Assembly: GCA_949296115.1 (NCBI GenBank) | Contig: CASFNR010000017.1 | Location: forward strand, 1 to 41,640 | Reading direction: 5' to 3' | Source: an uncultured Eubacteriales bacterium | Lineage (GTDB): Bacteria; Bacillota; Clostridia; Oscillospirales; Oscillospiraceae | Length of the DNA: 41,640 nucleotides | Shown: positions 30,412 to 32,715 of the stretch, piece after piece | Numbering within the stretch: position 1 is the first letter of the stretch | Layout: every line of letters begins with the position of its first letter | Notes under the pieces: model-generated | The model's input: only the letters and a program-made list of their open reading frames with translations | The model's database searches: none | What the model was told of the DNA's origin: nothing | Translations under genes and position numbers: made by a program

Positions 30412-32715
30412 ATGGCCAGCGTCAGTGAAATCCGCCATCACATCAGTGCGGTGGATCAGACCCGTCAGATTACCAATGCCATGCAGATGGTTTCTTCCGC
30501 CCGGATGAAGAAGTTCTCCGGCTCCATTCCCTACAACGCCGAGTATTTCAAAAAACTCCGCTCCACCATGAAGGACATTCTGGAATCCTCCCAGGACGTG
30601 GATCACGCCTACCTGCGTCCCCACCGGGGCGAGCGGCGGACCTACATTGTCATCGCAGGCGACAAGGAAATGGCCGGCAGCTACAACCACAATATTCTGA
30701 ACATGGCCTATGACGAAATCCGGCAGTACCCCGGCAGCTATGTGGTGACAGTGGGACAGATTGCCACCCACTTCTTCCGCAAGCGGGGCATTGAGCCGGA
30801 ATTCGAGGTCCCCGGGGCCGCACAGGACCCGTCGCTGTTCAACGCCACCCAGCTGGCTCTGCCGGTGATGGAATTCTTTGACCAGAACCAGACCGGCGAA
30901 ATCTACATTTTCTTTACCCTGTACTGCGGGGAGGACGGGCGCCCCGTGCTGAAGCCCCAGAAGAGCCGTCTGCTTCCCATTCGGCTGCGGGACTTTACCC
31001 ATGTGGAGGCCACCGAGGACCTCCACAACATGATTTACAATCCCTCTCCTCAGGAGGTCTTTGATCAGCTGGTCCCCCAGTTTATTATCTCCCGGATTTA
31101 TGACGCTTTTGTCCAATCCTACGCCGCGGAGCACTACTCCCGGATGAATGCCATGCAAAGCGCCACCCGGAACGCTGATGAACTGCTGAAAAAGCTGAAT
31201 CTGGAGCTGAACATCGCCCGTCAATCCCAGATTACCCAGGAAATCACCGAAATCAGCGGCAGCAGCCTGGGACAGGAGGTGGACGACTCGTTTCGGAAGG
31301 AGGAACCCAAAATGGAGCAAGAATCCTGCCAGGGCGCAATCATTTCCAAGATTTCCGGCCCTGTGCTGACGATACGCTATCCCGCTCAGGAGGACTGGGC
31401 ACTCCATGATCTGCTGATTACCGAGTCCGGGGTACATCTGGAAATCGCTTCCCACACCAACGTGGGGGAGTGCCGCTGCGTGGCCCTGGAATCTACCTAC
31501 GGTCTGAAATGCGGCATGAGCGTGACCAACACCCGCAGCTGCATTCAGGTGCCTGTGGGTGAGCAGACCCTGGGCCGGGTGGTGGATGTGCTGGGCAAGC
31601 CCATCGACAACGGCCCCGCCCTCACCGGCCAGCGCTGGCCCATTTACCGTCCCGCCCCGGCCTTTGAAGATCAGAACAGCAAGACGGAATTCCTGGAAAC
31701 CGGCATCAAGGTCATCGACCTGCTGACTCCCTACGCCAAGGGCGGCAAGATCGGCCTGTTCGGCGGCGCCGGCGTGGGCAAGACCGTGCTGATTATGGAA
31801 CTGATTTACAACATCGCCAAGGAGCACGGCGGTTACTCTGTGTTTACCGGCGTGGGCGAGCGGAGCCGGGAAGGCAACGACCTGATCCACGATATGCGCG
31901 CCTCCGGCGCCATTTCCAAAACGGCCCTGGCCTTCGGTCAGATGAACGAGCCTCCCGGATCCCGGATGCGGGTGGCCATGACCGGCCTGACCATGGCAGA
32001 ATATTTCCGGGATCAGATGAACCAGGATGTGCTGCTGTTCATCGACAACATCTTCCGGTATGTCCAGGCGGGCAACGAGGTCTCCGCCATGCTGGGCAGA
32101 ATGCCCTCCGCCGTTGGCTATCAGCCTACCCTTGCGGAAGAGCTGGGCCAGCTGGAAGAGCGGATCACCTCCACCAAGAGCGGCTCCATCACCTCGGTGC
32201 AGGCCATCTATGTGCCCGCCGACGACCTGACGGACCCCGCCCCCGCCACTATTTTCTCCCACCTGGACGCCACCACGGTGCTGTCCCGGCATGTGGCGGA
32301 AATGGGCATCTACCCCGCCGTCAGCCCTCTGGAGTCCAATTCCCGGATTCTGGACCCGGCCATTGTGGGCCAGGAGCATTACGACGTGGCCCGTCGGGTG
32401 CAGGAATGCCTCCAGCGCTACACCGAACTGAAGGACATCATCGCCATTCTGGGTATGGACGAACTGTCCGAGGAAGATCAGAAGATTGTCTACCGGGCCC
32501 GGAAGATTCAGCAGTTCCTGTCCCAGCCCATGCACGTAGCCGAGCAGTTCACCGGCCAGCCGGGTCGGTTCGTCCCCCTGAAGGACACCATTCGCAGCTT
32601 CCGCACCATTGTGGACGGCGAAGTGGATCACCTCCCCGAGGCCGCCTTCTCCATGGTGGGCGACATCGACGAGGCCATCGAAAAGGCGAAGGAGATGGAG
32701 CGCCATGGCGAATGA
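30412..32715 (+). CDS. ATP synthase gamma-beta joined open frame
   Basis: 767 codons without a stop. Residues 1-~287 are gamma: [29 protein letters not shown] at the start and [31 protein letters not shown] at the end, the two rotor helices. About 13 linker residues follow, then beta from residue 301. Alpha3-beta3-gamma needs three beta per gamma, and gamma must turn against beta, so a covalent gamma-beta alone could not build a normal motor. AAGGAGG (31297-31303) with ATG 31312 can supply free beta. Free gamma has no stop anywhere near in any frame. TCG eight codons upstream of the ATG is one base from TAG. A sequencing or assembly error must be excluded. Confidence 0.85.
31297..31303 (+). 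promoter_or_regulatory. Internal Shine-Dalgarno for ATP synthase beta
   Basis: AAGGAGG, 8 bases before ATG 31312, within the joined gamma-beta frame. It fits separate beta translation. Confidence 0.85.
31312..32715 (+). CDS. atpD: ATP synthase F1 subunit beta from the internal start
   Basis: 467 residues, the family length. [16 protein letters not shown] opens the barrel; P-loop GGAGVGKTV (beta residues 151-159), the catalytic Glu in [31 protein letters not shown], the [13 protein letters not shown] loop and DELSEED ([10 protein letters not shown]) are all present. It looks catalytically complete. It ends 11 bases into the epsilon gene. Its frame is continuous with gamma upstream. Confidence 0.95.

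Follow-up and report, generated by a model that had tools for sequence, protein, structure and literature searches.

A conserved natural fusion of ATP synthase subunits gamma and beta in uncultured Clostridia and its candidate role as a rotor tied to its own stator

The ordinary bacterial F-type ATP synthase is composed of alpha3-beta3-gamma-delta-epsilon, together with a, b2 and the c ring. Rotation of gamma inside alpha3-beta3 is the textbook case, in which rotor and stator are treated as distinct molecules. The top end of gamma and the N-terminus of beta are both located in the crown, and in ordinary enzymes the N-terminal domain of delta sits atop it. The nearest known cases to a chain carrying both gamma and beta are the b-delta fusions found in nature and a lengthened beta in the gliding motor of Mycoplasma. 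The former are represented by a mycobacterial family (NF009961) in which b and delta presumably form one chain. The latter is MMOB1670, the beta of the Mycoplasma mobile G1-ATPase, a beta homologue with a long N-terminal extension; that extension is described as a phosphoglycerate kinase-binding domain, not gamma, with gamma (MMOB1630) separate, and the b/delta-derived protein GliD is proposed to be a gene fusion (PMC11864180).

A covalent link between rotor and stator has been engineered in E. coli F1. A gamma285-alpha280 disulfide in (alpha-beta)3-gamma, formed with a cross-link yield of >98%, left the activity at 140 U/mg, the same as before. Links at gamma282, 279 and 276 left 76, 38 and 26% activity, and links further down <2 and 7%; single-molecule rotation of the linked enzyme was reduced by 60%. 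In the authors' account, the last helix turn unwinds and swivels, rotation on a leash being thought unlikely for their own disulfide (PMC3536650).

Here we present a conserved bacterial gene in which gamma and beta are encoded as one chain. It lies in a 41,640-nucleotide stretch of DNA from an uncultured Eubacteriales bacterium, referred to below as the window, where positions 30412..32715 (+) form one ORF, from ATG to TGA, of 767 aa and 85.7 kDa. An earlier note on this DNA had described gamma and beta as one open frame, and a single 767-codon frame with both domain sets in one chain was indeed found. Pfam assigns residues 4-283 of this chain to ATP-synt (gamma) and finds the barrel, nucleotide-binding and C-terminal domains of beta within residues 311-739. 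Both halves pass NCBIfam, gamma with TIGR01146 (205.9, cut-off 194.45) and beta with TIGR01039 (745.3, cut-off 462.85). The arrangement shares with the E. coli disulfide enzyme, which still hydrolyses ATP and rotates, a covalent rotor-stator link at the gamma tip; that link is engineered, made to alpha and without a linker, whereas the one in the window is natural, genetic, made to beta and about two dozen residues long (PMC3536650). Among the matches listed, no title in the open-access literature refers to a natural gamma-beta fusion, and the 47 gamma sequences matched in the PDB do not exceed 364 aa and so cannot include beta.

The fused gene belongs to a complete F-type operon on the + strand, with the order 95-aa ORF, a, c, b-delta fusion, alpha, gamma-beta, epsilon. 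The 95-aa ORF (26750..27037, +), without Pfam or NCBIfam match, occupies the same place in all eight clade operons examined and is found weakly in L187. Subunit a (26973..27926, +; the ORF as listed, its true start probably lying later) scores above the Pfam cut-off for PF00119 and below that of TIGR01131 (87.2, cut-off 102.6). It is followed by c (27951..28190, +; PF00137, and TIGR01260 at 48.2, cut-off 43.95), by the b-delta fusion (28206..28886, +), whose b passes NCBIfam (67.3, cut-off 65.5), and by alpha (28900..30408, +; TIGR00962 at 682.7, cut-off 484.45). Epsilon (32705..33127, +), the start of which overlaps the end of beta, matches PF02823, PF00401 and TIGR01216 (85.3, cut-off 67.25). 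As in an ordinary F-type enzyme, all subunits are thus encoded in one operon and alpha, beta, gamma, b, c and epsilon pass NCBIfam; the window differs in having gamma and beta on one chain and only the C-terminal domain of delta, fused to b. The F-type alpha and beta with catalytic P-loop intact, the F-type gamma, and the membrane part a, b, c with epsilon are all present. Rotor gamma and stator beta do not lie on separate chains in the window, where they form one 767-aa frame, separate chains being a feature of known members and not of the F-type sequence family. The fused beta carries the P-loop GGAGVGKT, and its catalytic sequences are intact and invariant between both fused lineages described below; we take the roles of these motifs to be the familiar ones.

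Two other classes were considered for the window beta. It scores 508.1 against the Mycoplasma gliding (G1) ATPase model NF045858 (cut-off 850) and 554.5 against TIGR03305, the N-type alternate F1F0 ATPase (cut-off 752), and is assigned to neither. A point in common with the N-type ATPase is that one genome carries two F-type operons: on a different contig, the window's genome (89.6% complete, 85 contigs) has another, ordinary F-ATPase operon, the gamma of which has its own stop. The N-type operon order presumably differs from that of the window. Two side observations concern the DNA itself. An antisense frame, 28840-32868 (-), is open for 1342 codons over alpha, gamma and beta and is most likely a by-product of codon bias; elsewhere in the window, at 3527-3698 (+), there is a lysine riboswitch (104 bits). 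Stops are rare in this GC-rich operon, so a single open junction between gamma and beta would by itself mean little, and the argument has to be made from relatives.

The junction was delimited by alignment with the gamma of Bacillus PS3 (285 aa), residue 279 of which aligns with residue 283 of the fusion. This puts the expected end of an ordinary gamma close to residue 289, some 11 residues short of beta Met301, and the gamma module is placed by homology at 30412..31278 (+), roughly residues 1-289. The gamma helix had previously been described as running through about 13 residues into beta; the link stands, and the length becomes about 11. The joining segment (31264..31335, +; residues 285-308) is predicted to be coil that connects the C-terminal helix of gamma with the first strand of beta, in a gamma-beta model that is poor overall (pTM 0.43, with parts of beta as uncertain as the linker) and was used for secondary structure only. 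Linkers are mostly polar or hydrophilic, with 65-83% of D, E, K, R, N, Q, S, T, P and G across 10 fused genes. The further claim that no frame has a stop around the junction proved correct: counted from the gamma EISG motif, the -1 frame first meets a stop after 52 codons and the +1 frame after 39, both inside beta. A programmed frameshift yielding free gamma was considered and rejected, as there is neither a conserved slippery heptamer nor a conserved nearby stop in the other frames; such stops come within 1-2 codons in both frames of G414, and in the other members mostly 27-119 codons on, with one at 497.

Comparison with relatives shows that the open junction is conserved. A scan of 84,980 species genomes gave 361 gamma relatives, and among the best 80 of these the closest six (77-94% identical) are all fused, while the other 74 (<=35% identity) comprise 73 with a stop and one not judgeable. 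Over 108 loci, 8 are fused, 98 have a stop and 2 are not judgeable. The gamma-beta frame is open in all eight members found of what we call clade A, the window included, with gamma about 71-100% identical. At least three named assembly series are represented among them (CALX/CALW, CAJFN and DVJJ accessions), and every named relative is a metagenome-assembled genome. The nearest, G047 (same contig as L061), also has a 767-codon frame, with gamma about 95% identical; G414, found in a sample of 394 genomes of the order, belongs to another family and is fused as well, at 71-73% gamma identity. A further contig, C201 of G048, is 91% identical in DNA to the window over epsilon and the end of beta; it breaks off inside beta, before the junction. 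Such a gamma is thinly spread: it was found in 2 of 136 genomes of the window's genus, 5 of 7 of L065's genus and 1 of 87 of G414's family.

These relatives bear directly on the possibility that an assembly or sequencing error removed the gamma stop. The window comes from an incomplete draft, which would leave room for such an error, and the earlier note had suggested a stop lost by one base (TCG versus TAG, at 31288-31290). That suggestion fails, the codon being CCT in the nearest relative and a stop being absent from all eight junctions; comparison with relatives recovered a stop between gamma and beta outside the clade only. Since eight genomes from the several series agree, with different junction bases and no stop, the open junction is neither a read error nor a fresh mutation, and we regard the error explanation, already refuted by the relatives, as having practically no remaining probability.

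In G414, G526 and G527, PF00231 finds no gamma other than the fused one. G414 is 98% complete, so at least one near-complete genome offers no other F-type rotor. By length and score, G414 and G526 probably have a V/A-type pair too. The other five of the eight clade genomes (G000, G525, G528, G529, G530) carry an ordinary gamma in addition.

Outside clade A, open junctions are rare. Across 153 junction strings over all loci (some being one genome cut at another point), 141 have a stop, which indicates that the stop is normally maintained. The 12 without one include nine from clade A, with two entries for the window, and two from a second lineage; the last, G144 (L148/L030), was scored open and rejected as a fusion, its gamma being out of frame with beta and ending past the beta start. 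Long open frames in G012, G028, G044 and G056 were likewise rejected, as were G627, G681, G724 and G593, each having a stop at the gamma end. Among the listed matches spanning the gamma-beta junction, a missing stop is confined to the window and G702 in a sample of 391 genomes of the class, and to the window in a sample of 398 of the phylum. In L024 (G107), gamma reaches one codon before the beta ATG and then stops, a state that resembles the one just before fusion.

The second lineage consists of two congeneric species, G702 and G956, from another clostridial family. The fused frame of G702 has 786 codons, and its gamma is 28% identical with that of the window; G956 is 90% identical to G702, and its contig ends inside beta. 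Their linkers differ in length by 13 codons, and neither has a stop. Searching seven genomes of this genus at E 1e-150 gave matches in two, and two further members of the family, G591 and G951, both have a junction stop. In a 42-row tree built on gamma and beta placed next to each other, each fused group forms its own clade, with support of 100 for both. A single origin of both was rejected, the joint clade costing 175 log units (p-AU 3.4e-70) on a tree from a quick search in which the second lineage sits on a long branch. By this phylogeny, the gamma-beta fusion is of two independent origins.

Whether the frame is maintained by selection bears on a neutral reading, in which the stop was lost, readthrough into beta is nearly harmless, a link at the gamma tip being tolerated by the enzyme, and nothing selects either way. 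Neutral simulations on the clade tree lend it some room. With moderate base compositions all eight tips are stop-free with probability 0.12-0.54 (the G414 branch shortened), and with third-position composition with probability 0.91-0.95, so stop-free linkers are not improbable neutrally (0.12-0.95 by composition) and selection on the frame, judged from the absence of stops alone in the clade-A simulations, is not significant. The linker also changes fast. Between the window and G047, 6 of the 13 codons 288-300 differ, all changing the amino acid and none synonymous, which argues that the linker sequence itself is not constrained, and linker sequences share almost nothing except the Shine-Dalgarno codons. 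What speaks against neutrality, besides the stop kept in most junction strings, is that every length change is of whole codons. Linkers ahead of the beta start are 14, 16, 17 and 18 codons long in clade A, requiring at least three length changes, and the 13-codon change in the second lineage adds another; at a chance of about 1/3 each, four such changes would come to ~0.01, a rough reckoning and not a test. The in-frame lengths hint at selection more strongly than the absence of stops does. We consider neutral drift an improbable account, and it would in any case still imply a working tethered rotor.

The fused gene very probably also yields beta from an internal start. The beta module (31312..32715, +) opens with an ATG at 31312-31314 and, if made alone, would be 467 aa and 51.3 kDa. 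Upstream lies AAGGAGG (31297..31303, +), a Shine-Dalgarno sequence conserved across the clade. An internal beta start with an ideal AAGGAGG had been noted before, and the ranking bears this out: the predicted duplex is first among 89 start codons in the window's fused gene. In all eight clade-A genes the beta start codon, ATG in seven, stands behind AAGGAGG or AGGAGG, with predicted pairing to the 16S tail of -10.9 to -11.4 kcal/mol, ranking 1-4 of the 52-93 start codons per gene and slightly stronger than at gamma's own start. L063 is the one with TTG, and keeps its Shine-Dalgarno. In the second lineage the signal is weaker, at -7.2 (rank 9 of 74) and -4.9 (rank 18 of 65). On these ranks, the case for free beta is good in clade A and less strong in the second lineage.

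Both fused lineages also have a short delta. In clade A, b is fused to a delta reduced to its C-terminal domain in all eight operons (OSCP profile 98-172, of 172, in the window). The window's delta scores 30.5 with TIGR01145 (cut-off 57.5) and so is not a complete delta (OSCP) with N-terminal domain, a full delta being usual for the F-type and not defining, and short delta occurring outside the fused clades. The chain differs from the mycobacterial b-delta fusion, scoring 27.5 with NF009961 (cut-off 328) and having no delta N-terminal domain; its structure model (pTM 0.29) was used for secondary structure only. In G702 (L193:5750-7546) the short delta (profile 101-171) is instead joined to alpha, at whose N-terminus it stands in a single frame of 598 aa. 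A simple motif scan of 102 operons found 51 with full-length delta, 20 with short delta outside the fused clade, the 8 clade b-delta fusions, 4 unclear and 19 missed, G702 among these. By the same type of scan, frames joining short delta to alpha occur elsewhere, e.g. L067, L078 and L087, and L187, L190, L048 and L047 have a separate delta of ~72-75 aa with the C-terminal domain only (by Pfam for that of L187). With two origins, short delta and fusion can only be said to be correlated. The pairing is understandable, since the tether must pass the top of the crown, which in ordinary enzymes is covered by the N-terminal domain of delta.

From these features we infer the following scheme, drawn from gene structure and comparison. 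Translation from 30412 would give gamma-beta, the sole source of this operon's gamma, and translation from 31312 would give free beta. The fused chain would supply the single rotor and one of the three beta, and two free beta would complete an alpha3-beta2-(gamma-beta) complex. The link would exit from the top of the gamma axle, on the rotation axis inside the crown, and reach the beta N-terminus through about two dozen loose residues; each turn would then twist single bonds in the tether and the helix end, without winding up the chain, and the absent delta N-terminal domain would leave room for the tether. It had been objected that a covalent link is hard to reconcile with rotation. The difficulty is less than it seemed, since in E. 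coli a link at the gamma tip leaves F1 active (PMC3536650). Because the tether here would leave gamma at or beyond the most tolerant position, the joined chain serving as rotor with one beta is to us the most likely arrangement, and we lean, with some reserve, towards a conserved fusion whose one gene gives two products, with uncut gamma-beta acting as a swivelling rotor with one tethered beta.

It had also been proposed that free gamma would need cleavage. That much is true; free gamma may, however, not be needed. Should it be, gamma-beta would enter the complex as a precursor, after which a protease would cut the exposed linker, the products being free gamma that ends in a short tail and beta that is slightly extended at its N-terminus. 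Characterised enzymes have free gamma, and the linker, hydrophilic and predicted to be loose, would lie on the surface; the linkers, on the other hand, have no conserved cut site, and cleavage, which must hold in two separate lineages, does not explain why the frame was kept instead of the stop being regained. We consider such processing possible and rather unlikely. Much further down in probability stands an arrangement with the tethered beta as a passenger: the ring would be filled by three free beta, for which the internal start could be the source, and the additional beta would dangle from the tip of gamma over the crown, where the missing delta domain leaves space. Against this, the fused beta keeps all family-invariant catalytic sequences and would compete for ring places from synthesis on, and an enzyme with three free beta plus one would be wasteful.

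Returning to the uncut, tethered rotor, we find the case evenly poised for a broader claim: that this is a natural rotary ATPase with its rotor permanently tied to its own catalytic stator subunit, with a swivel at the tip and non-equivalent beta, evolved at least twice and each time without the delta crown domain. If so, only the lower gamma must turn freely, and the laboratory swivel would be something that evolution has used (PMC3536650). Such an enzyme would have one naturally marked beta and would be useful for asking whether the three sites are equivalent. If the chain is cut instead, the cut would be a new maturation step of ATP synthase. Synthesis of the fused chain would also tie each gamma to one beta from the outset, a point relevant to how F1 assembles.
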